A stretch of DNA of 29,693 nucleotides from a virus (IMGVR_UViG_3300005563_000081:1-29693), one strand, 5' to 3'; counted from the stretch's first letter, positions 7,328-27,579 are shown. Program-made: numbers and translations. Notes: generated by a model from the letters alone, not told the origin.

Positions 7328-7819
7328 TCAGGCTGCGAGGTTTTCGAGCTCGGCCATCACCGCGGGGTACTGCTCTTCCTTGAGCGGCCCGAACGCGCTG
7401 ACGCCGAACTTCTCCTTGAGCATCGCCTGGATCGCGCGGCCGTCGGCCTTCCCGCTGTCCATCAGGCCCGACGCGAAAGCGCGAACATCTTCGAACTTCA
7501 CCGGCTCGTCAGAAGGGGATGCATCGGTCGTCGCAGTCGGGCCAGCACCATCCGACGGGCCCGCAGTAGATTCCGGCGTGTCCTGCTTCGCAGTGCCGCC
7601 CCTCTTGGCCCGAGACTTTTTTGCGGGCTTCTCCTCGACAGGAAGCTCGTCGAGCATCTCGCCGTCGCCGGGCTCGACTTCCTTGACGCCGGTGAGAAAG
7701 CCTGGCGCCACTTCAAGCCGCGGGCTCCTAGCCGGGTCCTGCTGCGGCCCAGGGGTGGCCGCGAATATGTGCGCCAGCTCGCCGAGCGAATTGGCCTGGA
7801 TGGTGAGCGTGATGTTCAT
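7328..7819 (-). CDS. Hypothetical protein, first gene of the replication operon
   Basis: A 163-aa protein with three zones: an N-terminal segment starting MNITLTIQANSLGELAHIF, a low-complexity linker rich in Lys, Ala, Pro and Ser (about 60-105, with KKSRAKRGG), and a C-terminal helical domain (KFEDVRAFASGLMDSGK, then LKEKFGVSAFGPLKEEQYP). Similar proteins with a charged linker and this kind of C-terminal helical domain occur just upstream of DUF2800/DUF2815 in other phages without a known function. The ATG at 7819 has AAGGAG eight bases upstream and follows a strong promoter. It may be an accessory factor for the nuclease or the DNA-binding protein. Confidence 0.75.
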   Translation of the reverse strand: MNITLTIQANSLGELAHIFAATPGPQQDPARSPRLEVAPGFLTGVKEVEPGDGEMLDELPVEEKPAKKSRAKRGGTAKQDTPESTAGPSDGAGPTATTDASPSDEPVKFEDVRAFASGLMDSGKADGRAIQAMLKEKFGVSAFGPLKEEQYPAVMAELENLAA

Positions 7820-7851
7820 TTTCAGGTCTCCTTGGGTGAGAGCGAATCGCG

Positions 7852-7867
7852 TTACCGCGACTCACAC
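7852..7867 (+). promoter_or_regulatory. Copy 0 of the TTACCGCG-N4-ACAC element
   Basis: TTACCGCG-ACTC-ACAC on the plus strand. It lies at about +3 to +18 of the leftward replication promoter (expected start near 7870), so here it would act as an operator or an opposing promoter. It is flanked by an imperfect inverted repeat (GCGAATCGCG ... CGCGACTCAC, 7845-7864). Confidence 0.5.
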
Positions 7868-7876
7868 TCGGTTCTT

Positions 7877-7904
7877 GTTATACGCCACGAGTTTACTGCG
7901 TCAA
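7877..7904 (-). promoter_or_regulatory. Sigma70-type promoter of the replication operon
   Basis: Read leftward: -35 TTGACG (7904-7899), a 16-base spacer, and -10 TATAAC (7882-7877). It lies in the only clear gap of this arm, 58 bases before the ATG at 7819, and all genes from 7819 to the left edge follow on the same strand with tiny gaps or overlaps. This is the best sigma70 match seen in the window. Confidence 0.7.
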
Positions 7905-10160: not shown

Positions 10161-10261
10161 TGTGGGTTGTCCTCTTCGGCACACAGCATATACTGTTCGG
10201 CACCCGTCGCCTTCTCGCAGCGCGCAGCAAGCGCAAGCAGGCTTTGGTTACGGTCTGTCAT
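10157..10261 (-). CDS. Very small phage protein, 34 aa
   Basis: A short frame starting MTDRNQSLLALAARCEKATG. It starts at ATG 10261 with GAGGGAG six bases upstream, begins inside the end of the Myb-like gene, and its TGA overlaps the ATG of the next gene (ATGA). The Leu/Ala-rich helix followed by CEKATGAEQ resembles small proteins found in phages of related bacteria. It is too short to assign a function. The coupling on both sides and the strong ribosome site make it a likely real gene. Confidence 0.65.
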   Translation of the reverse strand: MTDRNQSLLALAARCEKATGAEQYMLCAEEDNPQ

Positions 10262-10673
10262 GGGTTGCTCCCTCGATCACCGCCTGTTTTCCGGCGCAAA
10301 AGCTGCTTGGACAAGAGGCGACCTGGCCCTGCGTCACTTTCGTCTCGCATTGCGAGCACCACAGCCTTTGGGCCGCGGGAAGCCGGGCGATGTTCAACAC
10401 TCGGGAGGCGTGCGTGCGGATCGCCATCGCGCTGCGATGGGGCAGCAGCTTCTGGCACGCTGCGGGCCCGAGGATAGCGTAATGCTCGCGAAGCAGCGTG
10501 TCCTCCTCCGCGCTCCAGCCGTTGAGCTTGTGAACCTGAGGCAGTGGCTGCGGTGGCGGCGCGTCGAGCCGCTTCATCAGCGATTCCAGCGCGTCGACGC
10601 TCGCAACCGCGGCTGCGATCTTCTCGCGACAGTCTCGGATGTGCCCGCGCAAAAGCTCCTCGACGGGGTTCAT
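10248..10673 (-). CDS. Myb/SANT-like DNA-binding protein with C-terminal zinc knuckle
   Basis: A 141-aa protein. Residues 1-37 form an amphipathic helix region (DCREKIAAAVASVDALESLM), followed by a Pro/Gln linker. Residues 52-95 match a SANT/Myb-like or GcrA-like helix-turn-helix unit (GWSAEEDTLLREHY, then HRSAMAIRTHASRVLNI). Two cysteine pairs (WCSQC 105-109, then C121 and C126) form a likely zinc knuckle. The start at 10673 overlaps the preceding stop as ATGA; the longer frame upstream is out of phase with a real gene and Cys/Pro/Arg-rich. It is the clearest candidate transcription regulator in the window. Confidence 0.75.
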   Translation of the reverse strand: MNPVEELLRGHIRDCREKIAAAVASVDALESLMKRLDAPPPQPLPQVHKLNGWSAEEDTLLREHYAILGPAACQKLLPHRSAMAIRTHASRVLNIARLPAAQRLWCSQCETKVTQGQVASCPSSFCAGKQAVIEGATHDRP

Positions 10674-11001: not shown

Positions 11002-11468
11002 TGCTTCGCTCCGTATTCCCTGAACCAGTAAATCCCGAGCAGCGCCGCTTCGGCCCTGCCGTCGTCCTTGACGCGCCGGAACCAGTCTTCGACCGGCCAC
11101 AGGCCGCGTGCCATTTCGAGGCTTGCCTTCTTGCCGACGCCGCGCAGATTCATCTTCCACTTCCAGGTCGCGGGCGGGATCAGCACCGGGATGACGCCGA
11201 GCCCGACGCACACGCCGATCAGTTCGCCGAAGCCCTTGCCGAAGTTGAAGCTCCCCGGACCTGACTGGCCGGGAACGCCGTTCACCTTCTCGATCACCAC
11301 CGTGACGCGGTGGCGGAAGTCGAGGCAGTCGAGCAACAGGTCGGCGAAGCGCCGGGTGAGCGAGCCGTCGATCGGATCGTGGACCGCGCACAGCTTGCCG
11401 TCCTGAAAAGCGGCAATCGCTCCGGTCTTGCCTGGGTCGACGGCGAGGACGATGTGCGAGGGGATCAT
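10998..11468 (-). CDS. RuvC-like Holliday junction resolvase
   Basis: A 156-aa RNase H-fold nuclease expected to cut four-way junctions made by replication and recombination before packaging. It has LAVDPGKTGA with D11, TVVIEKV with E60, the glycine-rich GPGSFNFGKGFGELIG segment typical of phage RuvC-like proteins, and a C-terminal KDDGRAEAALLG acid motif (D136, E140). The length fits the family. The start at 11468 overlaps the methyltransferase stop (ATGA) and the stop overlaps the next start. All expected catalytic acids are present. Confidence 0.88.
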   Translation of the reverse strand: MIPSHIVLAVDPGKTGAIAAFQDGKLCAVHDPIDGSLTRRFADLLLDCLDFRHRVTVVIEKVNGVPGQSGPGSFNFGKGFGELIGVCVGLGVIPVLIPPATWKWKMNLRGVGKKASLEMARGLWPVEDWFRRVKDDGRAEAALLGIYWFREYGAKQ

Positions 11469-12472
11469 AGAGTCTCCATCACGGCTTCGATGAAGCCTTG
11501 CGCTTGCGCGAGGTTGATCGCGTTACCCGCTCCGCGCAGCGTGCCCACGCGGTTGCGAACGGTCCCAGTTGGAGCCAGAGGGAATGTTCCGGGTGCAACT
11601 GGCCTCCACTTTCCATCCGTGCAGCAGAGCCAGTCAGCATCTTGCCAGAGGCCGTTAATCGGGCCGGGCCGACTGCTTGCGCCTGCATATTGAGCGACAC
11701 GGTCGCCTTCGATCCATCCGGCCGTTTGCCTGTAAGGCTCGCCTCCTTCGCCGCCTGAGAGCCGTCCGCGTTGCCGACTGTCGGAGAGGCCCATCCCGCC
11801 AGCGCCACCGTCTTGCGGCTGCTGTCGTTGTTCCCGGCTTCGTTGTAGCCCTTCTGAGCCGGAGTCCCGGCCATCGGAGTCGGCCAAGCCGCCAGATGCA
11901 CCGCCGTCTGGATGTTCAACCCACCGTCGCGGCCTTGCGATCCGGCTCCCGTGGTCGCGTTCTCGTGAGGCGTCGGCCATCCAGTAGAGCCGCTGCCTGA
12001 TGTGCGGAGCGCCGAAGCCCGCAGCGCAGGTATCTGCCGCCCCGAAGGCGTAGCCCGACGCTTCCAGGTCAGCCGATACAAGGTCGAGCCAAGCAAGGCC
12101 GTCTTTCGATGCAACCTGCTCGCCAAGGACGAGTTCAGGAGCGCATTGTCCAATAAGCCAATGGAACGCGGGCCATAGGTGCCGCTCGTCATCAAACCCG
12201 CCGCCTTTGCCTGCCGCGCTGAAAGGTTGGCATGGGCAACTGCCTGTCCAGATCGGCCGGTCGTCAGGCCATCCGGCTTGTCGCAGGGCGAGGCTCCATA
12301 CGCCGATTCCGGCGAAGAAGTGACACTGAACAAATCCTCCAAGGTCACGAGGCTCAACATCCTCGATGCTCCGCTCGTCGACCTCGCCGGACGCAATGAG
12401 GCCGTCGACGATCAGCTCTCGGAGCCATGCCGCGGCGAACGTGTCGTGCTCGTTGTAGTACGCCCATTGCAT
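11465..12472 (-). CDS. DNA cytosine-C5 methyltransferase
   Basis: A 335-aa enzyme that methylates C5 of cytosine in a specific DNA site using S-adenosylmethionine. It has motif I FFAGIGVWSLAL (52-63), motif IV GSCPCQPFSAAGKG with catalytic C81, a motif VI variant GEQV (117-120, usually ENV), motif VIII QRLYWMA (160-166) and motif X RGAGNAINLAQ near the C-terminus. The target-recognition region is rich in Gly, Asp, Arg and Gln, with repeated ADS/SDS segments (about 168-260). The first 50 residues (AYYNEHDTFAAAWLREL) are a normal extension of this phage subgroup. No restriction enzyme is adjacent, so it probably protects phage DNA or marks its own sites. The start at 12472 has AAGAG nearby. Confidence 0.9.
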   Translation of the reverse strand: MQWAYYNEHDTFAAAWLRELIVDGLIASGEVDERSIEDVEPRDLGGFVQCHFFAGIGVWSLALRQAGWPDDRPIWTGSCPCQPFSAAGKGGGFDDERHLWPAFHWLIGQCAPELVLGEQVASKDGLAWLDLVSADLEASGYAFGAADTCAAGFGAPHIRQRLYWMADASRERDHGSRIARPRRWVEHPDGGASGGLADSDGRDSGSEGLQRSREQRQQPQDGGAGGMGLSDSRQRGRLSGGEGGEPYRQTAGWIEGDRVAQYAGASSRPGPINGLWQDADWLCCTDGKWRPVAPGTFPLAPTGTVRNRVGTLRGAGNAINLAQAQGFIEAVMETL

Positions 12473-14388: not shown

Positions 14389-14502
14389 GTTCAAAGCCTC
14401 CTTCGGTATAACGAGCGACTCGGCATTGCCGCGCGAATCACTGTGTCCTCGATATCCGCTTATCTGCTCCCCAAAGCAAATTAAAACGTCTAACAGTTGA
14501 TT

Positions 14503-14700
14503 TCATTCGGGAATTAGAGCGATCAGCTTTTCGGCGAGATCAAGCGCTGCGCGTTGCGATTCGCCTAGCGCCGTTTGCTCCAGTCGGCGGTCTGTGAGGT
14601 AGCGGCGAACGTCGATCGCCCGGCCACGGGCTTTGCGCGCCGGGCCCATCAACCAGGTCATTGCATTGTGTTCGAATGCTTCGAGCCAATCCTTATCCAC
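14503..14700 (-). CDS. Small conserved phage protein, 65 aa; first leftward gene
   Basis: A helical protein starting (GTG) DKDWLEAFEHNAMTWLMG, then ARGRAIDVRRYLTDRRLEQT, then AALDLAEKLIALIPE. The GTG at 14700 has AAAGGAG seven bases upstream and marks the domain start. An ATG at 14754 in the same frame would add 18 residues that are not well formed. It is the first gene leftward from the central region and so probably an early gene. No family is named. Confidence 0.65.
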   Translation of the reverse strand: MDKDWLEAFEHNAMTWLMGPARKARGRAIDVRRYLTDRRLEQTALGESQRAALDLAEKLIALIPE

Positions 14701-14750
14701 GTCGGTTCTCCTTTTGATTGCTCCCGCGTATACCACAGTGCTCCACGCGC

Positions 14751-14938: not shown

Positions 14939-15236
14939 GCTCAGGCCCTAACAGCCTAAAAAGCCGTCAATCCTATCCACCCGCTACACACGCGCATTGG
15001 TCCAATAGGTATAACAGCAATAGATCGGCCCAGGCCCGGCCCCTACCAGGCCGCCGAGCCTCCGAGACCGCCGCCCCTTCGAGCTGCCGAGCCTCCGGGG
15101 AGGGATTGCTTGCCAACCTTGGGGCCTTGGGGCCGGGGAGGTATCGACACGAAAATACGCCCCTAACCCCAAAACCGCGCCAATTTTGTAATTTTCCAAG
15201 CCTAACAACCACTTAGCCGACCCCTTGACGCGAGCC

Positions 15237-15252
15237 TTACCGCGTGAGACAC
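15237..15252 (+). promoter_or_regulatory. Late element copy 1, upstream of the holin/terminase unit
   Basis: TTACCGCG-TGAG-ACAC, 31 bases before the GTG of the first rightward gene. No good -10 box follows, so host sigma70 use alone is doubtful. Confidence 0.55.
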
Positions 15253-15283
15253 ATTGCTCCTCAAGCCCATTCGGGGGACGGCC

Positions 15284-15751
15284 GTGACCCAGGACCAATT
15301 CACGCTCGGAGCAAGCTCGCTGATCCGTCACTTGCTGACCGTGATCTCGGGGCTGCTGGTCGCACGCGGCTTCGAGGCCGGTGGCGACCTGGTTTCGAAC
15401 CTAGCCGCCGCCATCGCCGTCTTCGGCGCGACGCTGGCGTGGTCGTTCATCCAGAAGAACCGGCTGCTCTCCGCGCTGGTATCGGGGCTGAACGTCAGCG
15501 CGCTTGAGCAGTTGCTCGCGCAGGCCGCCGAACTTCGCCGGCAGGGCGCCGATCCGCTTCTCGTCGCCCACATGACCGGCACCGCCCTCGCGGTCGCTCA
15601 GTCCGAGCTTGGCTCGCTTCACCCAACCATCTCTGCGGCACCTCCCGGACCTTCGCCAGAAGTTGCCGCCGCAGGGGTGCCGGCTCCTGCTCCGGTCGAG
15701 ACGCCATCCCCGGCCGGGCAGGAGCCGGATGCCGGAGGATCGACCCTATGA
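15284..15751 (+). CDS. Putative holin (Pam3-gp28-like) with Pro/Ala-rich tail
   Basis: A 155-aa membrane protein. Residues 10-60 contain two hydrophobic segments (IRHLLTVISGLLVARGF and LAAAIAVFGATLAWSFIQK) arranged as in small putative phage holins of the Pam3-gp28 type, which form inner-membrane holes at lysis. Unusually the helices are followed by a helical region (VSALEQLLAQAAELRRQG) and a Pro/Ala-rich tail (about 112-155). The start is GTG at 15284 with GGGGGA upstream; a longer frame from 15254 lacks support. It opens the rightward unit and overlaps the next gene by ATGA. The holin role is inferred; it sits far from the endolysin. Confidence 0.6.
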   Translation: MTQDQFTLGASSLIRHLLTVISGLLVARGFEAGGDLVSNLAAAIAVFGATLAWSFIQKNRLLSALVSGLNVSALEQLLAQAAELRRQGADPLLVAHMTGTALAVAQSELGSLHPTISAAPPGPSPEVAAAGVPAPAPVETPSPAGQEPDAGGSTL

Positions 15752-16158
15752 GCGGGATTCCCTCAACGTCCTCGAAGCCTGCCCTGGTCTTCAAGGCCGC
15801 TATCCTGTCGTTTGGTGGGGCGCTCGCCCTTGCGGCTTGCGCCACGCTGACAGGCTCCCCGAGTGTCAGTGCGCAGCGAACGGTCTATCAGGCCGAGAGC
15901 GCCTTCGCCGCGGCGCTGCCGGTGGCGGTGGCCTACGAGGCTCTGCCTGCCTGCTCGGCGGCGCAGGCGTTTCCCTGCTCCGACCCGGCGACGGTTGTCC
16001 GGGTGACGGCGGCGGCTCGTGCCGCTCGGGCGAGCCTGAGCACTGCCGAGGCCGCGGTTCGATCCGGAAGCGACGCAGGCGCGCTGACGACTGCGGCGTT
16101 GCAGGCTCAGAGCGATGTCGAGGCTTTCGCCGCGCTCTCCGCAACCTTGGGGAAGTGA
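15748..16158 (+). CDS. Phage lipoprotein
   Basis: A 136-aa protein with a lipoprotein signal: basic start, hydrophobic core (KAAILSFGGALALAAC) and lipobox LAAC with the lipidated Cys at 31. The mature part is Ala-rich and helical (VRVTAAARAARASLSTAEAA, then LTTAALQAQSDVEAFAAL), with a cysteine pair (ACSAAQAFPC) that could form a disulphide in the periplasm. Membrane anchoring after a holin-like gene suggests an outer-membrane spanin or a related lysis or exclusion role, but it is longer than usual Rz1 proteins. The start overlaps the previous stop. Confidence 0.7.
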   Translation: MSGIPSTSSKPALVFKAAILSFGGALALAACATLTGSPSVSAQRTVYQAESAFAAALPVAVAYEALPACSAAQAFPCSDPATVVRVTAAARAARASLSTAEAAVRSGSDAGALTTAALQAQSDVEAFAALSATLGK

Positions 16159-16159
16159 C

Positions 16160-16363
16160 ATGCCCGAAGTCTTCCTGTTCATCGAAAAGCTTCTCACCCT
16201 CATCCCCACGGCCATCCAGGTCGGCGGCGATGTCGAGGCGATCATCCGGAACGGCAGGGCGGCGCTGGCGGCGATGGAGGCCGAGAACCGCGGCCCGACC
16301 GACGCCGAGTGGTCGAACCTCGACGCCACCATCAACGGCCTGATGGCCCAACTGAAAGGTTAA
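16160..16363 (+). CDS. Small helical protein, 67 aa
   Basis: A protein starting MPEVFLFIEKLLTLIPTAIQ, then IIRNGRAALAAMEAENRGPT, then EWSNLDATINGLMAQL. An amphipathic to hydrophobic N-terminal helix and two helices suggest a small membrane-associated or structural protein. The second half (PTDAEWSNLDATINGLM) resembles small phage proteins found near lysis or packaging genes. The ATG lies one base after the lipoprotein stop. The function is unknown. Confidence 0.65.
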   Translation: MPEVFLFIEKLLTLIPTAIQVGGDVEAIIRNGRAALAAMEAENRGPTDAEWSNLDATINGLMAQLKG

Positions 16364-16366
16364 CCG

Positions 16367-16723
16367 ATGAGCTTCCGCACCCTTACGCTGCTTCACACCG
16401 TGCTGTGCAACGTGCAGACGGCGCTGGCCGTCGGCTCGCCTGTCAACTCCGGAGTGCTTGGAGATTTCAACGCCGGGGTCACCGGCCTCGTGCTCGGCGG
16501 CCGCGAGCCGTCCGACATGGAGCTTTCGGCGCTGACTCAGCTCGGGAGAGCGGTTACGGCCGAAGCATCGGCGGCCGTGGGCGAGGCAGGCGATGTCGAA
16601 GCATCCTCGGCTCAGGTCACGGAGACGAGTGCAGGGGAACCTGCGCCTGCCGAGCCTGCCGCCGAAGGTGAAGCGCTCGATCCCAACGCGCCTGCCGCCG
16701 GCGACGATTCCGACGGCGCGTAG
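16367..16723 (+). CDS. Hypothetical protein with acidic disordered tail
   Basis: A 118-aa protein. Residues 1-60 look folded (MSFRTLTLLHTVLCNVQTAL, then NAGVTGLVLGG). The rest is rich in Ala, Glu, Pro and Asp (ETSAGEPAPAEPAAEGEALD) and likely disordered. It begins three bases after the previous stop. Frames in other phases over the same bases are Arg-rich shadows. It may be a head or packaging accessory; no family is recognised. Confidence 0.6.
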   Translation: MSFRTLTLLHTVLCNVQTALAVGSPVNSGVLGDFNAGVTGLVLGGREPSDMELSALTQLGRAVTAEASAAVGEAGDVEASSAQVTETSAGEPAPAEPAAEGEALDPNAPAAGDDSDGA

Positions 16724-16725
16724 CC

Positions 16726-16941
16726 GTGGCGGTCGAGGAAAGGTCACATCGCTCGTCGCACATCGCGGCCACCAGCTACGACCACGACAGCGGCGACCTT
16801 ACCGTGACGTTCACCGACGGCAGCGAGTGGCTGTACCGGGGGGTCGACCCGAAGACCTACAACCTCCTGGTGTCGTCGCCGTCGGTCGGAAGGGCGTTCA
16901 ACACGTTCGTCCGCGACAGCTTCGAAAGCGAGGAAGTCTGA
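16726..16941 (+). CDS. KTSC-domain protein
   Basis: A 71-aa protein matching the KTSC domain: HIAATSYDHDSGDLTVTF, DGSEWLYRGVDPKTYNLL and SPSVGRAFNTFVRDSF. The domain is named after C-terminal parts of lysyl-tRNA synthetases and is common as a stand-alone phage protein; its exact role is unknown. The GTG at 16726 follows the previous stop after two bases, and its TGA overlaps the next ATG (TGATG). Confidence 0.8.
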   Translation: MAVEERSHRSSHIAATSYDHDSGDLTVTFTDGSEWLYRGVDPKTYNLLVSSPSVGRAFNTFVRDSFESEEV

Positions 16942-17075
16942 TGCCCGCAAAGAGCGAGAAGCAGCGCCGGTTCGCGGCGATGAGCGCCGACCCGAAGGGC
17001 CGCGAAAAGCTCAAGCGCGAGGGCAAGAAGCCTATGCCCGTCAAGGCGGCGAAGGAATATCGGCGGAAGAAATGA
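16941..17075 (+). CDS. Small very basic protein, 44 aa
   Basis: A protein starting MPAKSEKQRRFAAMSADPKG and ending MPVKAAKEYRRKK. About a third of residues are Lys or Arg. It resembles short basic phage proteins starting MPAKS... (DUF3008-like) and probably binds nucleic acid. The ATG overlaps the KTSC stop and its TGA overlaps the next ATG, so the three genes are coupled. Confidence 0.7.
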   Translation: MPAKSEKQRRFAAMSADPKGREKLKREGKKPMPVKAAKEYRRKK

Positions 17076-17281
17076 TCGACGCCGACAGCCTCGACCGCAT
17101 TAACGCGGTGCTGTCCTCGCTTCCGGGGGTGGAGGGCTTTGCGCTCGTGCTCAGCTACGGGGACCGGGCCGAGGTGGCGCTCAACCATATCGACCCCGAT
17201 AACGCTTCCAATGTCATTCTCAGCGTCGCCGACGAGTATCGCAGGGCGCTCGCGGAAACCCCGCCTATCCGGCTGAACTAG
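17072..17281 (+). CDS. Hypothetical protein upstream of the terminase
   Basis: A 69-aa protein: DRINAVLSSLPGVEGFALVL, SYGDRAEVALNHIDPDNASN, then VADEYRRALAETPPI. A small alpha/beta fold is likely. It directly precedes the large terminase, where a small terminase often sits, but it has no helix-turn-helix that would mark one. The ATG overlaps the previous stop (ATGA). Confidence 0.65.
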   Translation: MIDADSLDRINAVLSSLPGVEGFALVLSYGDRAEVALNHIDPDNASNVILSVADEYRRALAETPPIRLN

Positions 17282-17283
17282 CC

Positions 17284-19257
17284 GTGAAACAGGACGCTCA
17301 CGAGGAGCTGTTCGCCCGGCTCTATCGCGACCGAATCCTCGCTCACGAAGTGCTGTTCCCACACCGGCATACCAACCGCACCGAGGACTTTCATCGCCAG
17401 ATGATCCTCGACTGGCACGACACCACCGTTCGCCGCTCGATCGACATGGCGTTCCGCGGCAGCGCCAAGTCGACCATCGCCGAGGAGGCGGTGACGATCC
17501 GCGCGGGATTCCGCGAGTTCAAGAACGCACTGGTCATCGGCGAGACCTTCGAGCGGTCCTGCGAGCGCGTCCATGCGATCAAGAAGGAAATCGAGACCAA
17601 CGAGAACCTGGCGACGGTGTTCGGCGATCTTCGAGGCCCAACCTGGGCCGATGGCGAGCTCGTGCTTTCCAACGGCGCGCGCATCAAGGCGCTCGGGCGC
17701 GGGCAGGCGCTCCGCGGGATCAAGTTCGAGGACATCCGCCCAGACGCGATCTTCTGCGACGACGTGGAGACCGCCGAGAGCGTGGTCGACAAGGACCGGC
17801 GCGAGAAGACCCGGCGATGGTTCTTCGCCGACCTCCTGCCCGCCTGCGACCCGTCGGCGTTCGTCCGCGTCGCCGCCACCCCGCTCGACAATGACGCGCT
17901 GGCGGTGCGGCTGTTGAGCGCGCCCGGCTGGCAGCACAAGATATTCCCGATAGAATATATCGACCCCGACACCGCCGAACGCATGGCGACGTGGCCCGAC
18001 CGATTCCCGTTGTCGGCCGTCGACGAGCTTCGCGACACGTTTATGAAGCAAGGTCTCTTCGCCGACTTCGAGCGCGAGTACATGTGCCTGACGAAGAGCG
18101 TCCGGTCGCGCACCTTCCGCGAAGAGGAAATCCGCATCGAGGCGCGGCCCCGGACGTGGCAGGCGGTCTATGCGATGTTCGACCCTGCCCGCACCACCGG
18201 CGCCAAGTCGGCGACGACTGGCTATGCGAGCTGGTCGTGGATCGGCAACAAGCTGGTGGTGTGGGATGCGTGGGGCCGCCAGCTTCTCCCCGATGGAATC
18301 GTCGACGCCATCTTCGAGTGTGCGACCACCACCGACCTGCCGCCGGTGTGGATAGGGGTCGAGGAGGATGGCCTCAACGAGTTCCTGCTCCAGCCGATCC
18401 GCAACGAGCAGGTCAAGCGCGGCCTCTCGATCCCGTTCCGCGCGATGCGGGCCCCGAAGGGCAAGCTCGACTTCATCGGCGGCTTGCAGCCTTATTTCCG
18501 GGCCAAGCAGGTCGAGTTCGTCAAGGAGTTGCCCGACCTTCGCGACCAACTCCTGAGCTTCCCGACCGGCCGGATCGACGTGCCCAACGCGCTCGCTTAT
18601 GCGCTCAAGCTGAAACCCGGCGCCCCTATCCACGAAAATTTCAACCACGAGCACATCGTCGAAGGGTTGCGGAAGGTTGCCGGCATGAAGCCGTGGCTGC
18701 TCCTGCACGCGATGCCCGGCGGCCTTGGCGGGGCTGTCGTGCAGTGGGGGGACGGCGTGCTCTATGTTCTCGCCGACTGGTTCTACGAGGGCCGGCCGCC
18801 CGAGCTCGTCTCGACCATCGTTTCCGAAGCGCGGCTCGAAGTCGGGCCGATTGCGGTCGCGGTGCTGCCTCCTATCCATTTCATCAAGTACACCAACGGC
18901 GGTGTCGCTCAGATGGTAAGCCGGATGCCGATGGAGGCGCAGCAGGGCGGCGGCATCGAGCAGGGCACGGCCAAGCTGTCGGATCTCCTGGCGCGCAAGC
19001 GAAAGGGCTTCCCGTCCATCCGCATATCGAGCGCCGCGACGTGGACGCTGAACGGGTTGGCAGGCGGCTATTGCAAGTATCTCAGCAAACAGGGGGTGCT
19101 CGAAGCCAAGGCCGAGGACGGACCCTACAAGGTCGTCATCGAAGCGATTGAAAGCTTTCTCGGACTCGCTCTCAGCGACGTGGTCATGGATGACCGCAGC
19201 GAGCTCCGGTATGATACTACCGCTACAGGGCGCCGATATTTGTCGGCGAGGAGATAA
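17284..19257 (+). CDS. terL: Terminase large subunit
   Basis: The packaging motor and DNA-cutting enzyme, 657 aa. ATPase domain: Walker A variant FRGSAKST (57-64), Walker B AIFCDDVE (155-162) and coupling motif VAATP (196-200). Nuclease domain: YAMFDPART with D300 as first acid, then a second acid around VEEDGLNE and later ones in the C-terminal half. The RGSAKST form of Walker A is typical of phage terminases of podovirus type. The start is GTG at 17284, three bases after the upstream stop, with no clear Shine-Dalgarno sequence, which suggests coupling. It is followed after three bases by the portal gene. The small subunit is not recognised in the window. Confidence 0.92.
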   Translation: MKQDAHEELFARLYRDRILAHEVLFPHRHTNRTEDFHRQMILDWHDTTVRRSIDMAFRGSAKSTIAEEAVTIRAGFREFKNALVIGETFERSCERVHAIKKEIETNENLATVFGDLRGPTWADGELVLSNGARIKALGRGQALRGIKFEDIRPDAIFCDDVETAESVVDKDRREKTRRWFFADLLPACDPSAFVRVAATPLDNDALAVRLLSAPGWQHKIFPIEYIDPDTAERMATWPDRFPLSAVDELRDTFMKQGLFADFEREYMCLTKSVRSRTFREEEIRIEARPRTWQAVYAMFDPARTTGAKSATTGYASWSWIGNKLVVWDAWGRQLLPDGIVDAIFECATTTDLPPVWIGVEEDGLNEFLLQPIRNEQVKRGLSIPFRAMRAPKGKLDFIGGLQPYFRAKQVEFVKELPDLRDQLLSFPTGRIDVPNALAYALKLKPGAPIHENFNHEHIVEGLRKVAGMKPWLLLHAMPGGLGGAVVQWGDGVLYVLADWFYEGRPPELVSTIVSEARLEVGPIAVAVLPPIHFIKYTNGGVAQMVSRMPMEAQQGGGIEQGTAKLSDLLARKRKGFPSIRISSAATWTLNGLAGGYCKYLSKQGVLEAKAEDGPYKVVIEAIESFLGLALSDVVMDDRSELRYDTTATGRRYLSARR

Positions 19258-19260
19258 GCC

Positions 19261-21357
19261 ATGGCGCGCGACAGTGAAGTTTCGAACCGGGACGCCGACC
19301 TTTCGAAGCGCGAGAAGATCAGGGAGCAGGCGATCAAGGTGTGCGAGAGCGCCCGTAAGGCGTTCGAAGCTCAGAACGAGCGCAACGAGTCGTCGCTCGA
19401 CCATTGGGACGCCTTCAACACAACCCTTTCCGACCGTCAGTTCTACCACGGCAACAGCACCATTTGCACGCCGTTCGTCCGCGACGCGGTGTTCGCCCGG
19501 CAGACCCGCTTCTCGGGCCAGCTATTCCCCGAGAACCAGAAGCACATCGAGGCAGTCGGCTCCGAAGACACACCCTATGCGACGATCAGCCTGCTTGAGC
19601 ATTACATCCGCCGGTTGAAGCTCAAGACGAACGTGGTCGACCCGCTCATCATCAACGGCGACCTCGAAGGCCAGTACAACCTCTACGTCAGTTGGGAGAA
19701 GCACACCCGCCACGTCACCAGTCGCGTCAAGTCGCCGGTCGAGGCCGACGGCGAGGAAGTGCCAGAGGACATCGCCGAGCCTGTTGACGACATGGAGGAG
19801 GAGCAGGAAGTCGTCGACAGCGGGCCGAGCGTCGAAGTGCTGTCCGACGCCGACGTGGTGATCTTCCCGGCCACCTCGCAGACGATCGAGCAGGCGCTGG
19901 AGAACGGCGGCGGGGTCGCCATCATCCGCCGCTGGACGAAGGGCGAGATCGAGCGCCGGAAGGCCGACAAGGACATTGATCCCAAGGCCGCCGAGGCGCT
20001 GCTCGAAACCATGAGCTCGCTGGAGAAGACCAACAGCGCCGACGTTCCGAAATCGCAGGGCGAAGCGGCCGGGGTGAAGATCCAGCGCGGCTCGAAGATC
20101 GCAGTAGTTTACGAGGTCTGGTGCAAGCTCAAGGTCGACGGCGAGCGCCGCACCTGCCGCATCCTGTGGGCGGGAGAGAAAATCTTCCTGTCGGTCAAGC
20201 GCAACCCCTACTGGTGCGACCGCGTGCCGCTCCTGTCCTGCGCGGTCGACAAGACGAGCGGGGTGTTCAAGGGCAAGTCCCCGGTATCCGCGGTGCTCGA
20301 CTTCCACATCCTCGCCAACGACACCGTGAACGAAGCGGCCGACAGCGGGCACTTCTCGATGCTTCCAATCACCATGACGGACCCGCTCAAGAATCCGAGG
20401 ATCGGAAGCCTGGTGATGGCGCCGCTGGCGATTTGGGAGACCTCGCCGAACGACACGCAGTTCGCCAAGTTTCCCAACATGTGGAAGGACGGCATCGAGC
20501 GCGTTCTCGAAATTCGTTCACAGATATTCCAGACGCTCTCCGTCAACCCGTCGATGATCCCCGGCACCACCGGAAAGAACCGGAAGATGAACCAGGCCGA
20601 GGTGGCGCAGGAGCAGATGGTCGACCTGCTCACCACCGCCGACGCGGTGCTCGTGCTTGAGCAGGGCATATTGTCGCCGCTCCTGACGCTCATCCTTGAG
20701 TTCGACCACCAGTTCCGCGACGAGGCGCTGCTCCTCCGCACGCTCGGTCCTGTCGGCCAGAAGGCGAAAATGGAGGAGCTGGAGCCGCAGCAGGTCGACC
20801 GCAAGGTGGAGTTCCGCTGGTTCGGGGTCGAGGCGGCGAAGACGGCCGCCAAGCTTCAGCAGCAGATTTCCGGCGTCAACGTGCTGCGCGGCATCCCGCC
20901 GCAGGCATACCCCGGCTACAAGCTCAACCTCGCTCCGATCATCAGCCAGATGGTCGAGAACCTGTTCGGGCCACTGCTCGCGCCCGAGGTGTTCAGCCAG
21001 GAGGACATGATATCGGTCGACCCTCAGGTGGAAGACGACATGATGCTGCACGGCTTCGACACGCCGGTTCATCCCTACGACAATGACGCGCAGCATCTCC
21101 AGGTGCATATGATGGCGATGCAGGGCGGCGATCCCCACGGGACGATCCGCAAGCACATCTGGCAACACCAGCAGCAGGCGCAGGCCAAGGCGGCGCAGCA
21201 AGCGGCGAAGCTCCAGTCGGCGCCGCAGGGCGGCCCCGGTGGTCCTCAGATGGGCGGACAGGTCCGGTCGCCGCAGTCGCAGCCTTCGCCTCCGGGGATG
21301 ATTCACCCCGACCAGATGGCCCGCGCCGGCTCTCCGGTTATGCCGCGCAAGGAGTGA
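19261..21357 (+). CDS. Portal protein
   Basis: A 698-aa head-tail connector that forms the DNA channel at the capsid vertex and docks the terminase. The N-terminal half has the pattern of podovirus portals (WDAFNTTLSDRQFYHGNSTI, FVRDAVFARQTRFSGQLFP), then a region RNPYWCDRVPLLSCAVDK, VLDFHILANDTVNEAADSG and FQTLSVNPSMIPGTTGKNRK. The C-terminal 100 residues are Gln/Ala/Pro/Gly-rich (QQQAQAKAAQQAAKLQ). An acidic loop (about 161-186) interrupts the fold and is probably surface exposed. Position between terminase and scaffold and the length agree with portal. Family-level recognition is by pattern, not by a short motif. Confidence 0.85.
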   Translation: MARDSEVSNRDADLSKREKIREQAIKVCESARKAFEAQNERNESSLDHWDAFNTTLSDRQFYHGNSTICTPFVRDAVFARQTRFSGQLFPENQKHIEAVGSEDTPYATISLLEHYIRRLKLKTNVVDPLIINGDLEGQYNLYVSWEKHTRHVTSRVKSPVEADGEEVPEDIAEPVDDMEEEQEVVDSGPSVEVLSDADVVIFPATSQTIEQALENGGGVAIIRRWTKGEIERRKADKDIDPKAAEALLETMSSLEKTNSADVPKSQGEAAGVKIQRGSKIAVVYEVWCKLKVDGERRTCRILWAGEKIFLSVKRNPYWCDRVPLLSCAVDKTSGVFKGKSPVSAVLDFHILANDTVNEAADSGHFSMLPITMTDPLKNPRIGSLVMAPLAIWETSPNDTQFAKFPNMWKDGIERVLEIRSQIFQTLSVNPSMIPGTTGKNRKMNQAEVAQEQMVDLLTTADAVLVLEQGILSPLLTLILEFDHQFRDEALLLRTLGPVGQKAKMEELEPQQVDRKVEFRWFGVEAAKTAAKLQQQISGVNVLRGIPPQAYPGYKLNLAPIISQMVENLFGPLLAPEVFSQEDMISVDPQVEDDMMLHGFDTPVHPYDNDAQHLQVHMMAMQGGDPHGTIRKHIWQHQQQAQAKAAQQAAKLQSAPQGGPGGPQMGGQVRSPQSQPSPPGMIHPDQMARAGSPVMPRKE

Positions 21358-21360
21358 TTC

Positions 21361-21376
21361 TTACCGCGCTTGACAC
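21361..21376 (+). promoter_or_regulatory. Late element copy 2, upstream of scaffold and capsid
   Basis: TTACCGCG-CTTG-ACAC, three bases after the portal stop. The bases CTTGACA give a -35-like box; a weak -10 candidate (TAGCTT) lies 16 bases on. A hairpin CCACCA/TGGTGG follows 22 bases downstream. Confidence 0.6.
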
Positions 21377-21398
21377 AGCGCCCCGTTGTGTTAGCTTC

Positions 21399-21419
21399 CC
21401 ACCACACCTCGACTGGTGG
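21399..21419 (+). other. Leader hairpin of the scaffold/capsid transcript
   Basis: CCACCA (21399-21404) pairs with TGGTGG (21414-21419), loop of nine bases. It lies between late element copy 2 and the scaffold gene; a similar hairpin follows copy 3. It may stabilise or process the 5' end of the mRNA. Confidence 0.4.
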
Positions 21420-21469
21420 CCGTACCTCACCACGACCGTCTTGCCGACGCTATCGGCTAGGAACCGCAA

Positions 21470-22195
21470 ATGGACCCGGAAGACACCGACGACGCTTTCG
21501 ACGAACTCGACGAAAACTTTGAAGAGCAGGAAGCCCCCGAGGGCGAAGAACCCGAAGAGGAAGTCCCGCTAGGCGAAGAGCCCGAAGGGGAAGTCGAAGC
21601 GGAGCCGGCGCGAAGGCCCTCCCGAGCGCAAGCTCGCATCGAGACGCTGGACCGGGAAGTGCGGGAAGCCCGCGAACGGGAAGCCGCCCTACAGCGGCAG
21701 ATCGAAGAAATTCGCAGCGGCCAAACTCGCACCACCCAAGCGGAAGCGGAACGCCAGGAACGTGAGCGCCTTGAGCGCATGGACCCGGTGGAACGCGCTG
21801 AATACCTCGCCCGGACGGTCGAAACGAGGACCAACCAGAGGCTCGATGCGCTCAACCGGCAGATCGCCGACAGCACCGATCGAGCAGAATTTGCCGAAGC
21901 CTGCGCTGCCAACCCGGCGCTGGCGAAGGTGAAGGACCAGGTGGAAGCCGAGCTTCGAAAACTCCGCGAGGGCAACGTGAACGTGCCGCGTCAGACTCTC
22001 GCTGCCTATCTCATCGGGAACCAGGTTCTCGATAAGGCTCCAAAGGCGAGGGAACGCGCGACGAAAAAGGCCGCGGCGAACCTAGATCGGGAGCGCACTC
22101 GGCCCGCAGGTGGGGCGTCTGACGCTCCAAGGTCGGGCAGGGACACGAGCGACAGGTCCGCACGCGACAAGAGGTTGGAGGACTACACCTTCTAG
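21470..22195 (+). CDS. Scaffold protein
   Basis: A 241-aa protein between portal and capsid, where phage scaffolds sit. The first 45 residues are strongly acidic (DELDENFEEQEAPEGEEPEE). Residues about 50-115 are a long charged coiled coil (ETLDREVREAREREAALQRQ, then EAERQERERLERMDPVERAE). The end is basic and polar (RERATKKAAANLDRERTRP), as in scaffolds whose C-terminal basic part binds the capsid protein. The ATG has AGGA seven bases upstream. It would guide head assembly and then leave. No protease is seen. Confidence 0.8.
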   Translation: MDPEDTDDAFDELDENFEEQEAPEGEEPEEEVPLGEEPEGEVEAEPARRPSRAQARIETLDREVREAREREAALQRQIEEIRSGQTRTTQAEAERQERERLERMDPVERAEYLARTVETRTNQRLDALNRQIADSTDRAEFAEACAANPALAKVKDQVEAELRKLREGNVNVPRQTLAAYLIGNQVLDKAPKARERATKKAAANLDRERTRPAGGASDAPRSGRDTSDRSARDKRLEDYTF

Positions 22196-22210
22196 CGCGG
22201 CCGGGTGCCC

Positions 22211-22235
22211 TTGGTCCCCGTTCGCAGGGGACCAA
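22211..22235 (+). promoter_or_regulatory. Hairpin enclosing the capsid gene ribosome site
   Basis: A perfect 9-bp stem, TTGGTCCCC (22211-22219) with GGGGACCAA (22227-22235), and a 7-base loop GTTCGCA. The Shine-Dalgarno sequence AGGGG of the capsid gene lies in the loop end and 3' arm, and the ATG (22238) follows three bases later. Confidence 0.7.
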
Positions 22236-22237
22236 AA

Positions 22238-23584
22238 ATGGCTGGTACAAACACTGCTGGACAGTTCTCGGCTGACATCGAGAGCTTTATCGCCGACAAA
22301 GTTCTGCCGCTCGCTCGCAAGCAGTTGGTGGCTTACCGCTTCGGCGACCCGTTGGAGCTCGATAAGGGGCGCGGCACCACCTACACCGCGACCCGGTTCA
22401 ACCGGCTCCCTTTGCCTTTCCAGGCGCTCACCGAAGGCGTCCCGCCTACGCAGGGCGAAAGCCTGACGCTGCAACAGGTCTCCGCGACCTGCCAGCAGTG
22501 GGGCGACATCGTGAAGATCACCGACGTTGCGGAAATGACCATCAAGCACCCGCTGGTCGCGAAGGCCAACGAGTTGATGGCCCTCCAGATGTCGGAGACC
22601 CTGGAGCGCAACACCTTCAATACGCTCAATGCGGGTACGCAGGTCAACTTCGTCAACAGCCGCGGCTCGCGTGCAGCGCTGGTTGCCGGCGACATCCTCG
22701 ACACCGCGACGGTCAACCGCACGGTGGCGCTGATGGTCAACGCCGGGGCCCCTCGCTTCCTCGGCGACGAGCAGACGGACACCGACAAGGATGTAGATCA
22801 GGGCGGTGGCCGGGCGTCGAACAATCCGCGCCTGATGCCGCACTACGCTGCAATCTGCCACCCATTCATCATCGCGGACTTCGCCAATGCGTCGGACGTG
22901 AAGACGGCGTGGCAGTACAGCGACATCAACCGGCTCTACAACTTCGAAGTCGGCGAGTGGCGTGGTATGCGCTTCTGCGAGAGCAACATGGTCCCGTCGT
23001 GGACCGGCGTTGCCGCCATCACCGGCACCGCCGGCACGGCCGGAAGCCTCGCGACCGGCGGCTACTTCGTCCAGGTCACGGCGTCGGACACGCAGAACCA
23101 GTACGAGAGCCGCGTCTATCAGGTGTCGGGCTCGATCGCCGTCACCGGCCCAAACGGGTCGATCTCGGTCATCCTCCCGGCGCTGCCCGGCTTCACGTTC
23201 AACGTGTACATCGGTACGACTTCGAGCCCGGCGAACCTCGCGCTTACTGCCGCCGGTCCGACCTACGGCCCGCTGTCTGGCAATGCCACGCAGCTCGCTC
23301 CGGGCCAGACGGTCGTGCTCACCGGCACCGGCGTTGCTCAGACCCCTCCGGCGGCTCCGGCCACCGGCGTCAACGTGTTCCCGACCTATGTGTTCGGGCG
23401 CGGCGCCTACGGACAGGTCAAGCTCGACAACGCCAAGTTCGCGCTCCTCAAGGACGCGGACAAGAGCGACCCGATGAACCAGATTCGGGTGCTGAGCTGG
23501 AAGCTCATGTACTCGACGATCTTGCTCAATGTCGCGTTCATGACGCGCATCGAGTCATCGGCCACAGCCTACGCCTTCGGCTAG
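22238..23584 (+). CDS. Major capsid protein, N4-gp56 family, with Ig-like insertion
   Basis: A 448-aa shell protein. The N4-gp56 pattern is clear: ADKVLPLARKQLVAYRFGD (about 19-37), GTTYTATRFNRLPLPFQALT, QQWGDIVKITDVAEMTIKHP, and the end GQVKLDNAKFALLKDADKSD with a hydrophobic C-terminus. Residues about 258-382 are an extra beta-rich domain of Ig-like or fibronectin-like type (VQVTASDTQNQYESRVYQVS, then FNVYIGTTSSPANLAL), bounded by TGTAGTAG and PPAAPATG linkers. This would be displayed on the capsid surface. The ATG at 22238 is preceded by AGGGG seven bases upstream, in a hairpin; an in-frame GTG at 22205 is less likely. Confidence 0.93.
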   Translation: MAGTNTAGQFSADIESFIADKVLPLARKQLVAYRFGDPLELDKGRGTTYTATRFNRLPLPFQALTEGVPPTQGESLTLQQVSATCQQWGDIVKITDVAEMTIKHPLVAKANELMALQMSETLERNTFNTLNAGTQVNFVNSRGSRAALVAGDILDTATVNRTVALMVNAGAPRFLGDEQTDTDKDVDQGGGRASNNPRLMPHYAAICHPFIIADFANASDVKTAWQYSDINRLYNFEVGEWRGMRFCESNMVPSWTGVAAITGTAGTAGSLATGGYFVQVTASDTQNQYESRVYQVSGSIAVTGPNGSISVILPALPGFTFNVYIGTTSSPANLALTAAGPTYGPLSGNATQLAPGQTVVLTGTGVAQTPPAAPATGVNVFPTYVFGRGAYGQVKLDNAKFALLKDADKSDPMNQIRVLSWKLMYSTILLNVAFMTRIESSATAYAFG

Positions 23585-23598
23585 TAGGCTCCTTGGGG

Positions 23599-23630
23599 AC
23601 TAGCGGGGCGGGGAAACTCGCTCCGCTAGT
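23599..23630 (+). terminator. Terminator-like stem-loop after the capsid gene
   Basis: ACTAGCGGGGCG pairs with CGCTCCGCTAGT (12-bp stem with one G-U), loop GGGAAACT. It ends in TAGTTTA, so the T-run is very short. Fifteen bases after the capsid stop and directly before late element copy 3, it would separate the capsid and tail transcripts. Confidence 0.65.
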
Positions 23631-23646
23631 TTACCGCGCTTCACAC
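23631..23646 (+). promoter_or_regulatory. Late element copy 3, upstream of the tail unit
   Basis: TTACCGCG-CTTC-ACAC, starting one base after the terminator stem. The gene at 23709 follows after 62 bases. No clear -10 box is seen at the usual distance. Confidence 0.6.
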
Positions 23647-23672
23647 TTTGCCCCTTTCATGTCATTGTGAGC

Positions 23673-24739: not shown

Positions 24740-25435
24740 ATGCCGTTGCAGGCGACGCAGATCGTTTCGCTTGCGACACAGGCCGCAGGTGTGCCCGGCT
24801 TCACGACCCAAGCCGGGCAGCTCCTGAACATGATACTTTCGGACCTCTGCCAGACCTACGACTTCGACATCGCGAAGAAGGTCACCACCATCAACTTGAG
24901 CAACAACTCGGGGCCATACGGCCTCCCGAGCGACTACCTTCGGGCGCTCAAGGACGACCTCTTCTACACGCTCGGCGGTGTTCCCTACCCGCTGGTGTCT
25001 ATCGACCTAGCCGAGTTCGACCGCTACCCGCAGATCGCGGGCTTCAACGCTTACCCGACCGCCTACGCCACGGATATGTCGCAGTCGCCGCCGGCGCTCT
25101 ACGTCTGGCCGCCGGCGAACGGCGTGCTGCCGGTGACGTTGCGCTACTTCTCGCAGATGCCCGACATCTCCACGCCCGAGCAGTCGAGCGTGATCCCATG
25201 GTTCCCGAACCAGGACTATCTAATCACCCGCTTGACCGGCGAGCTGATGCGGCTGGCCGACGACGACCGCTACACGACGTTCCTCGGCGATGGCGACGCT
25301 GGCGCGCAGGGCATCCTGCGGCGCTATCTCGACCTCAAGGACGACCGCGAGACCCGCGCGCAGCGGGTGACGCTCGACCGCCGGTTCTTCCGTGGCGGTG
25401 GCAAGCTCAAGAACACCAAGACGATCGGATTCTGA
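24740..25435 (+). CDS. Head-tail adaptor protein
   Basis: A 231-aa protein whose N-terminus (AGQLLNMILSDLCQTYDFDI) and segments GPYGLPSDYLRALKDDLFY and PPALYVWPPANGVLPVTLRY fit phage adaptor proteins of the P22 gp4/SU10 type, which bind below the portal and connect it to the tail. The C-terminus is helical and basic (GAQGILRRYLDLKDDRETRA). Position between head genes and the large tail protein agrees. The ATG is three bases after the previous stop. The call is moderate because the family is sequence-variable. Confidence 0.7.
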   Translation: MPLQATQIVSLATQAAGVPGFTTQAGQLLNMILSDLCQTYDFDIAKKVTTINLSNNSGPYGLPSDYLRALKDDLFYTLGGVPYPLVSIDLAEFDRYPQIAGFNAYPTAYATDMSQSPPALYVWPPANGVLPVTLRYFSQMPDISTPEQSSVIPWFPNQDYLITRLTGELMRLADDDRYTTFLGDGDAGAQGILRRYLDLKDDRETRAQRVTLDRRFFRGGGKLKNTKTIGF

Positions 25436-25437
25436 CG

Positions 25438-27579
25438 GTGGGCCTGCGCGGAAAAACCCCTGTCATCATCCGGGCCAAGGGGCTCAGCGATGCGCGGGAC
25501 GGCACCAACGCCTTCCCCGGCGCGATGCTGGCGCTCCAGAACCTCGTCCTTTCCTATCACACCGACGGGGTGTTCGTTCCGCGCCCGGCGGCGGTGAAGG
25601 TTATCGACTTCGCCAGCGCACCCGTTGCCAACCCGAACGGCGTCATCTCGGAGATGGTGGTGGTCGGGAGCCGTGCCTACGGCATGATCTCGTCACCGAC
25701 CTACGCCGGAAAAGACGAGCCGTTCTGCTACGATTTTTCGTCGAACAGCTTCATCCCGATCAGCGGGGTGGCGAGCACGCTCCTGCCCCTCTCGCCCAAC
25801 ACCACCGGCGATTGGGTTCCGCCAGTGATGCGGGCGATCAACAATACCTATATCCTCTGCACCCACCCCGGCTTTGCCGGTGGCGCCGTGCCGGGAACCT
25901 ACTTCGGCTGGATCGACACCTCGGGCTATTCGCAGAGCGTCCTCGGCAACACGACGCTCGGCTCCAACGTCATCAGCTCGCTTTACACGACGGTCGGCAA
26001 CAGCGCACCGATCCTGCAAGGCGTGCAGCCGGGCCAGCTTATCGCCAATGCCAACTTCCCGGCCGGAACCTATGTGGTTTCCTGCGCCAACGGCACGTTC
26101 AGCCTCAACACCACCGGCAACACCCACGGCACGACAACGCTCGACGGGCTGGCCTCGGTGGTCGGGGTGACGCCGGGAATGACCGTCACTGGCCCCGGAA
26201 TCGCTTCGGGGACGTACATCACCGCCATCGCCGGATCGAGCGTCACGCTGAGCCAGGCGGCAAGCGCGACCTCCACCGGCGTCGCGATCAACTTCTCCGG
26301 CGGCGGCTCGATCACCGTCAGCGCCAACGCCACGGCGACGGCCAATGGCGTCACCGTCAATGTCACCGGCGGCACGTCAGCGGCTCCGCGATGGGGTGCC
26401 GGCAATTTCAACACCAACCCGATCTCGACGATCCCGAAGACCGTGTATGGCTTCAATAGCCGCGCTTACATGGGCTCGGGGCCGTTTCTGGTCTATTCGG
26501 ACCCGCTAATGCCTTTGCAGGTCTCGGCGGCCTCGCAGGCGCTCCTGGTGGGCGATTCAACCGACATCACGGCACTGGCCGGCGTTCCGCTGAGCTCGCA
26601 GCTTACCGGCGGCGTGCAGCAGTCCATGACCGTCTTCAAGGGCGCCGGCACGCTTTACCAGGTTACGGGCGACGCGGCGGCCGGGAACTTCGCGGTCAAC
26701 GGCACCAGCTACGATGTGACCGGCGGCGGGGGCACCACGGACGGCGGGCTGCTGGTCAATGCGGTGGCGGGTTCCGTCGGGACGCTCGCGCCGCGTTCGA
26801 TCGTCGGAACCCCCGTCGGGACCATGTTTATGTCGGTCGACGGGCTTCGCATCCTGTCGCTCACCGGATCGCTGTCGGAGCCGCTGAATATCGACGGCAG
26901 CGGCGTGGCGATCCCGTTTCTCAACGCTCTCTACCCCTCGCGCATCGTCGCGGCTTACTCCGAGAACATCTATCGGGCGACGGTGCAGGACGGCTCGCAG
27001 CCGGGCAACCCGACCTCCGAATATTGGCTCGACGTTAATACGAAGGTGTGGACCGGCCCGCACACGATCACGGCGCGGGCGGCGCAGGCGTACATTTCGG
27101 GAGCTTCGTTCCTGATCGCTCCGGATGGCGTCAACGGGCAGATATGGCAGAGCGACGCCATTCCCGACTTCACCTCGACCTACACCGAGAACGGGGCGCG
27201 CCTGCAATGCCAGTACCGGACGGTGCTTCTCCCTGACAACCAGGCGGCGCGCTGGAACAAGGTGGTGCAGGGGACGCTCGTGATGTCCTTGAGCAACGCC
27301 GACTTCGCTAACGTGCAGGTCGACGACGACCGGGGGTCCGTGCTCGGGGCCTGCTCCTTCAACGGAGCCGCCGCTGCGGCCTCCATATGGGACAGCTTCG
27401 CGTGGGGCTCGGGGACGTGGGGAGCGCCGGTGTCGCTGTTTCGCGAGTACGCGCTCCAGTGGCCCAACCCGCTCGTGTTCCGCCAGGCACATGTGGCCGT
27501 GACGTTCCCCGCCGCCGCAGGGCAGGCGATCGGCAATCTCTATGTCCCGGTCCAGCCGGTGAACATGAACGACGTGTGA
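25438..27579 (+). CDS. Large tail protein (tail tubular B / P22 gp10-like) with duplicated beta insertion
   Basis: A 713-aa structural protein, the position and size of nozzle or packaged-DNA-stabilising proteins. The N-terminus has the usual start of such proteins (GTNAFPGAMLALQNLVLSYH, VFVPRPAAVKVIDF). Kelch or beta-propeller-like repeats follow (YGMISSPTYAGKDEPFCYDF, FMSVDGLRILSLTG). Residues about 165-315 hold an extra Gly/Thr/Ser-rich beta region with two related units (VQPGQLIANANFPAGTYVV at 196, VTPGMTVTGPGIASGTYIT at 244). The start is GTG at 25438, two bases after the adaptor stop. The frame is open to 24709, but that region overlaps the adaptor gene out of phase. Confidence 0.75.
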   Translation: MGLRGKTPVIIRAKGLSDARDGTNAFPGAMLALQNLVLSYHTDGVFVPRPAAVKVIDFASAPVANPNGVISEMVVVGSRAYGMISSPTYAGKDEPFCYDFSSNSFIPISGVASTLLPLSPNTTGDWVPPVMRAINNTYILCTHPGFAGGAVPGTYFGWIDTSGYSQSVLGNTTLGSNVISSLYTTVGNSAPILQGVQPGQLIANANFPAGTYVVSCANGTFSLNTTGNTHGTTTLDGLASVVGVTPGMTVTGPGIASGTYITAIAGSSVTLSQAASATSTGVAINFSGGGSITVSANATATANGVTVNVTGGTSAAPRWGAGNFNTNPISTIPKTVYGFNSRAYMGSGPFLVYSDPLMPLQVSAASQALLVGDSTDITALAGVPLSSQLTGGVQQSMTVFKGAGTLYQVTGDAAAGNFAVNGTSYDVTGGGGTTDGGLLVNAVAGSVGTLAPRSIVGTPVGTMFMSVDGLRILSLTGSLSEPLNIDGSGVAIPFLNALYPSRIVAAYSENIYRATVQDGSQPGNPTSEYWLDVNTKVWTGPHTITARAAQAYISGASFLIAPDGVNGQIWQSDAIPDFTSTYTENGARLQCQYRTVLLPDNQAARWNKVVQGTLVMSLSNADFANVQVDDDRGSVLGACSFNGAAAAASIWDSFAWGSGTWGAPVSLFREYALQWPNPLVFRQAHVAVTFPAAAGQAIGNLYVPVQPVNMNDV

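Follow-up and report, generated by a model that had tools for sequence, protein, structure and literature searches.

A 24-bp asymmetric element at predicted early and late promoters of a putative temperate sphingomonad phage: possible dispersed operators

Copies of the element in the window

The viral DNA stretch IMGVR_UViG_3300005563_000081:1-29693 carries a non-palindromic element in several copies, dispersed over the genome in non-coding DNA, before the late units (holin/terminase, scaffold/capsid and tail) and in the leaders of leftward early genes. The window, as we call the whole analysed record of 29,693 bp, is probably a fragment; all evidence comes from sequence comparison, and gene starts are those of a simple caller. 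The exact pattern TTACCGCG-N4-ACAC occurs in it four times, always on the plus strand, at 7852, 15237, 21361 and 23631, with ACTC, TGAG, CTTG and CTTC, respectively, as the N4 bases. A preliminary description of this DNA had given the same positions and N4 bases, and had placed all four copies outside genes; indeed none lies in a called gene, while the non-coding share of the window is 14%. Shuffling leads to an expectation of 0.01 copies, and four copies were reached in 0 of 100 shuffles. With three mismatches allowed, 31 matches are found against 26 expected; this is no excess over chance, so there is no cloud of decayed copies within genes.

Alignment of the late sites gives TTACCGCGNNNSACACWTTGNYCC, an ungapped motif of 24 positions and 24.3 bits, so the conserved unit is 24 bp rather than the 16 bases first reported. 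Its four exact copies stand, and two further weaker copies had been overlooked, at 14426 and 14721 on the plus strand. The copies and the promoter-like hexamers beside them are listed here with the matching positions in related viral contigs, of which G001, G002, G027, G036 and L134 carry the element and G034 does not.

7852-7875, plus strand: element copy antisense to leftward early gene 7328-7819, in its leader; same place at G002 38806 and L134 2541
7877-7904, minus strand: leftward sigma70-like promoter TTGACG-16-TATAAC, as read from the sequence, ending one base before the element; missed by a strict promoter scan (-10 position 6 is C)
14426-14449, plus strand: weaker element copy in an early leftward leader, TTGCCGCGCGAATCACTGTGTCCT; p = 1.5e-6; nearest form and place at G002 3204 and G036 4806
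14721-14744, plus strand: weaker element copy before leftward gene 14503-14700, CTCCCGCGTATACCACAGTGCTCC; p = 1.1e-6; stronger copy at G036 5041
15225-15230, plus strand: TTGACG, a -35-like hexamer 6 bp before the holin element; TTGACA in G002, G036 and the element-less G034
15237-15260, plus strand: element copy of the holin/terminase unit, TTACCGCGTGAGACACATTGCTCC; conserved at G002 3871 and G036 5566
21361-21384, plus strand: element copy of the scaffold/capsid unit, TTACCGCGCTTGACACAGCGCCCC; orthologous at G002 10357, G001 2208 and G036 11803
21370-21375, plus strand: TTGACA, a consensus -35 within the scaffold element; TTGACA here too in the element-less G034
23631-23654, plus strand: element copy of the tail unit, TTACCGCGCTTCACACTTTGCCCC; orthologous at G002 12641 and G027 830
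23640-23668, plus strand: TTCACA-17 bp-CATTGT, a weak extended sigma70-like promoter with TG one base before the -10; TGYCAT conserved in three genomes

Besides these three late places there is a fourth, before a gene of 49-51 aa in mid-operon (G002 21332, G027 9770 and G032 8618, the last corresponding to about window position 31962, beyond its end). The claim that the element marks the start of each late unit therefore holds for the late units but is too narrow, as copies also lie antisense in early leftward leaders and, in mid-operon, before a ribosome-binding site.

Conservation and overlap with putative host-type promoters

Orthologous copies recur at matching places in relatives whose capsid or portal is 76-88% identical, which bears out the conservation that the preliminary description had proposed as a check. 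At the holin, scaffold, tail and 51-aa-gene sites, invariant columns make up 71-88% of the element and 21-46% of its flanks; at the holin site (window 15237, G002 3871, G036 5566) the figures are 88% and 21%. At the early helicase-side site, by comparison, the flanks are as conserved as the element (46% in both). N4 is constant within each of the holin, scaffold and tail classes and differs between them. Matrices built with one promoter class left out still recover the element (p = 1e-7 to 2.5e-12), and the matrix from late sites only scores the eight early sites at p = 2e-6 to 4e-9, so early and late sites share one motif. The copies at 14426, 14721 and G002 38806 are weak by themselves, with 0.1-0.2 chance hits expected per genome, and are supported by their position.

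Relative to the sigma70-like hexamers that it overlaps, the element takes several registers: it covers the -35, the spacer and -10, or +1 to +24. At the scaffold and tail sites, element positions 10-15 read TTGACA or TTCACA, N4 completing TTSACA, and beyond these lies a CATTRT-like hexamer, with a spacing of 17 bp in five sites and 16 bp in G036; the window's scaffold site has TAGCTT at 16 bp instead. Tail sites retain TG one base before the CATTRT-like hexamer. The earlier statement that no consistent -10 box follows the copies thus holds only in part, since this weak hexamer follows TTSACA in relatives. Holin sites have TTGACR 6-8 bp upstream, so that the element would span -23 to +1. Before the 49-51-aa gene, a -10-like AAATCTARTAC is conserved just upstream of the element, which ends a few bases before the ribosome-binding site and leaves no fitting -10 downstream. 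The element-less relative G034 keeps TTGACA at both its holin and its scaffold promoters, so the element looks as if it had been added onto older host-type promoters.

A side observation concerns the scaffold promoter of three relatives, where a parS-like ParB site, TGTTCCACGTGAAACA, lies between -35 and -10 (G002 10375-10390, G001 2226-2241, G036 11820-11835). It is exact in two of them, has one mismatch in G036 and is absent from the window; in a separate group of relatives, a perfect palindromic parS is found close to the terminase gene (G014 1393-1408).

Early copies are always on the plus strand while their genes run leftward, and they lie directly downstream of host-type promoters, the other-strand -10-like hexamer ending within one or two bases of the element. 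Four of six early leaders fold into a stem-loop at the 5' end, immediately ahead of the ribosome-binding site (in the window, minus-strand RNA of 7839-7875 and 14410-14449). Since it is the antisense copy that forms this stem, at what is predicted to be the 5' end, and one pair survives between orthologs through a change of G-U to U-G (by inspection), the element might act as RNA, as a leader hairpin or an antitermination or processing signal. We hold this to be very improbable: late transcripts carry the other strand without a shared fold, conservation is not aligned with the stem, late copies over a -35 are untranscribed from the promoter that they overlap, and there is no Rfam match. The antiterminator site of the preliminary description, in particular, is unlikely, since the element is oriented oppositely with respect to early and to late transcripts.

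The element could instead be the promoter of a phage-specific transcription machine (a single-subunit polymerase, an unusual sigma factor or an appropriated host polymerase), with the start at or just after its 3' end. Its constant, ungapped 24-bp length would suit such a role, as would its direction toward the late genes in every late unit and the end of the mid-operon copy a few bases before the ribosome-binding site. However, nothing is conserved past position 24, the early-leader copies would drive transcription antisense to the early operons, and the TTSACA and CATTRT of the late sites would be left unexplained. The window had been described as lacking an RNA polymerase or sigma factor gene, and this can be extended to G002, a relative with a 110-bp terminal repeat: in Pfam and PHROG scans of 48 G002 proteins, which returned replication, lysis and virion genes, no polymerase or sigma factor stood among the matches listed (best 25 families each), remote or unannotated polymerases being beyond the reach of such scans. 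A PF00940 search had no working positive control and proves nothing. In our judgement a promoter of this kind is improbable, and the T7 type, which goes with a phage-encoded single-subunit polymerase and conserved start bases, is disfavoured because neither was found.

Other known geometries were compared by inspection. Sigma54 sites have a similar 7-N4-5 spacing, but the letters do not match, and CII-like, lambda Q-like and MerR-like geometries each suit one promoter class only. A host regulator or regulon was ruled out, as the motif is not enriched in host genomes: 18 sphingomonad genomes hold five copies, about as many as a reversed-pattern control, and the extended motif occurs in 12 of 398 genomes of the family, fewer than the control. 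Among the regulatory roles first proposed, a phage-specific element is thus borne out by conservation and by absence from host genomes, while a promoter for the phage's own polymerase is not favoured.

Relatives, lifestyle and candidate binding proteins

A capsid-protein search yielded 77 related viral contigs, among which only the close relatives G002, G001, G027 and G032 carry the element; two more, G036 and L134, came from a DNA pattern scan and a helicase scan, respectively. G002 is 41.8 kb long with its terminal repeat, so probably complete, and G032 matches the window across their overlap and extends past the window end. L134, G027 and G036 come from one metagenome, and such contigs are treated as probably one phage. 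More distant relatives lack the element, for example G034 (58% terminase identity) and G004, both of which look complete. Terminase and helicase scans gained few extra relatives, and a de novo search of the more distant ones gave no equivalent repeated element of comparable strength. Separately, G004 seems to have its own repeat: its leftward early leaders (24933-26580) have in common a sequence around GTGTCAC-N-GTCTA, placed ahead of the ribosome-binding site. In annotated phages, capsid relatives are below 28% identity.

Three further genes of the window bear on lifestyle and regulation:

1-693, minus strand: tyrosine integrase, 5' part, truncated at the window edge; attP, with the 3' half of a tRNA, beyond the edge (contigs L126 and L127)
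2738-2959, minus strand: second candidate binder, a 73-aa winged-helix protein between the polymerase and primase genes; faint ortholog in the element-less G034
10248-10673, minus strand: first candidate binder, 141 aa, with a Myb/SANT-like helix-turn-helix and CX2C-X11-CX4C; only in element-bearing phages

The integrase retains R, K, R, H and Y in conserved motifs (by inspection), and the attP beside it in sibling contigs contains a tRNA 3' half whose sequence is found mainly in Sphingomonadaceae genomes. By its genetic potential, the phage would thus be temperate. With a custom integrase profile, run at maximum sensitivity, no relative turned up in G034, G004 or any other element-less contig; these negatives rest on the custom profile, a phrog_1 search missing even the known G002 integrase. 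Two other relatives have different recombinases. Among the complete or long relatives compared, the element occurs only alongside the tyrosine integrase, the tRNA attP and the Myb-like zinc protein. A prophage hunt with the capsid as query gave no copy of this clade. As a separate observation, the integrase of the sibling contig L126 (1814-3149) is in two reading frames, a pseudogene or an assembly error.

The attP core is flanked by element-like copies as well, and these are on the opposite strand from the late copies (L126 3213, L127 670, L125 1368 and G027 18216, minus strand). Those of G027, L125 and L126 have p = 1e-7 to 6e-7, while the G002 copy is degenerate. This would suit a site for the integrase or for DNA maintenance (an arm-type attachment site, or a replication or packaging mark), and in SP-beta the repressor MrpR is itself a recombinase-fold protein that binds a repeated element (PMC10516654). 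Even so, we give this explanation the least credence, as conserved copies lie at promoters and gene starts, neither spaced nor paired, and the integrase has the catalytic residues expected of an active enzyme.

Of the candidate binders, the Myb-like zinc protein (135-141 aa) is carried by the three element-bearing lineages and no others, and was not found in the element-less G034 and G004. Its profile matches c-Myb repeats (E = 3.7e-4; repeat 3), and the best family match of the G002 copy is PHROG 323, 'transcriptional regulator, D5-like', named for T5 D5, with a marginal E-value over residues 6-93 only (E = 0.0025); a tblastn search of annotated phages gave no D5 relative. The AlphaFold model is mediocre (pLDDT 70) and the fold search weak. 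The 73-aa protein is modelled better (pLDDT 83), with winged-helix structural matches, none of them significant; its faint counterpart in G034 (E = 0.017) makes it less clade-specific. The Myb-like protein is our leading candidate for the element binder.

An early-to-late switch is the main rival to the reading that we favour below. An early phage protein would shut the leftward early promoters from +1 to +24 and activate weak late ones near -35. The element lies at early and late promoters alike, late -10 hexamers are weak, and the Myb-like candidate is an early leftward gene with the D5-like and c-Myb matches just given. But no single activator geometry fits all late sites (holin from -23 to +1; mid-operon without a -10), and the element-less relative has the same TTGACA at its late promoters. 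We consider the switch unlikely, although the activator site suggested in the preliminary description is a live rival. It is more doubtful still that the Myb-like protein is a one-protein switch of a new class for both lysis/lysogeny and early/late order, reading one asymmetric site in several registers and on either strand relative to transcription, and so silencing early promoters and permitting or driving late ones.

An unrelated side observation is a cytosine methyltransferase gene (window 11465-12472, minus strand) whose DNA is about 76% identical to genes of Xanthomonas and Erwinia phages; it has no counterpart in close relatives and is probably a recent acquisition.

Dispersed operators as the favoured reading

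Our leading reading, held tentatively and with a little less than even confidence, is that the copies are dispersed asymmetric operators, with a site of about 24 bp, of one phage-encoded repressor in a temperate sphingomonad phage. One phage protein would bind copies over nearly all transcription units. In late units it would cover the -35 (scaffold, tail) or the spacer and -10 (holin); in early units it would occupy roughly +1 to +24 of the leftward promoter; and at the mid-operon late gene it would lie between the -10-like AAATCTARTAC and the ribosome-binding site. In a lysogen and on re-infection, host RNA polymerase with its main sigma factor would thereby be kept off the lytic genes. We favour dispersed operators because early and late sites share one motif, which is no host regulon; because the registers vary by unit and N4 by promoter class, as they would if one recognition sequence had been placed on different parts of promoters, on either strand; because the element was apparently a later addition, within an integrase-bearing clade, to promoters that serve relatives without it; because it goes with the integrase, the tRNA attP and the Myb-like protein; and because the mid-operon copy, downstream of which a -10 would not fit, stands in a suitable position for a block.

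Systems of dispersed operators exist, as P1, L5 and SP-beta illustrate. The P1 C1 repressor has 22 asymmetric 17-bp operators dispersed over the genome (PMC8546580), which resemble the element in asymmetry and dispersal; sequence and host differ, about seven copies at early and late promoters are seen here, and no C1 relative was identified. The operators and stoperators of L5 are likewise dispersed, asymmetric and repressor-bound, at promoters and in short intergenic gaps, and the stoperators follow the direction of transcription, function being lost on reversal (PMC9283540, PMC6550527). They are 13 bp rather than 24 bp, and no repressor with a stoperator domain was identified here. The SP-beta element SPBRE is repeated in promoter regions and bound by the recombinase-fold master repressor MrpR (PMC10516654), but it is 15 bp long and unrelated in sequence, and the recombinase here keeps its catalytic residues and adjoins attP. 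Start-associated sequences (SAS), known from one phage group, cluster K, are likewise short asymmetric repeats close to gene starts and are missing from the host (PMC3203893); they contain the ribosome-binding site, whereas the element ends before it and lies mostly over promoters.

Several observations weigh against a repressor. The sigma70-like hexamers are weak, and the strict consensus scan reports no promoter, even where the TTSACA/CATTRT and TTGACR overlaps with the element are conserved; the scan demands T at -10 position 6, which partly explains the zero scores. The orientation rule of L5 does not hold, as early copies (7852, 14426, 14721 and their counterparts in G002, G036 and L134) are antisense to their operons. 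No repressor gene is recognisable by family, and the Myb-like gene lies inside an early operon without an obvious promoter of its own. The D5 of T5 makes the D5-like match of that protein favour a switch. The co-occurrence with integrase, attP and Myb-like protein is based on three element-bearing lineages only, and a query of 398 host-family genomes with the Myb-like protein gave no integrated prophage of this clade.

With annotated relatives so remote, this is a phage group without studied gene control, for which the element provides a direct entry point, namely a defined 24-bp probe, a few candidate binders and target promoters that are conserved. A switch, if that were the case, would show how early and late transcription can be ordered in such phages without a polymerase of their own. 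If the copies are repressor operators, they would add a dispersed asymmetric operator system in phages of Alphaproteobacteria.

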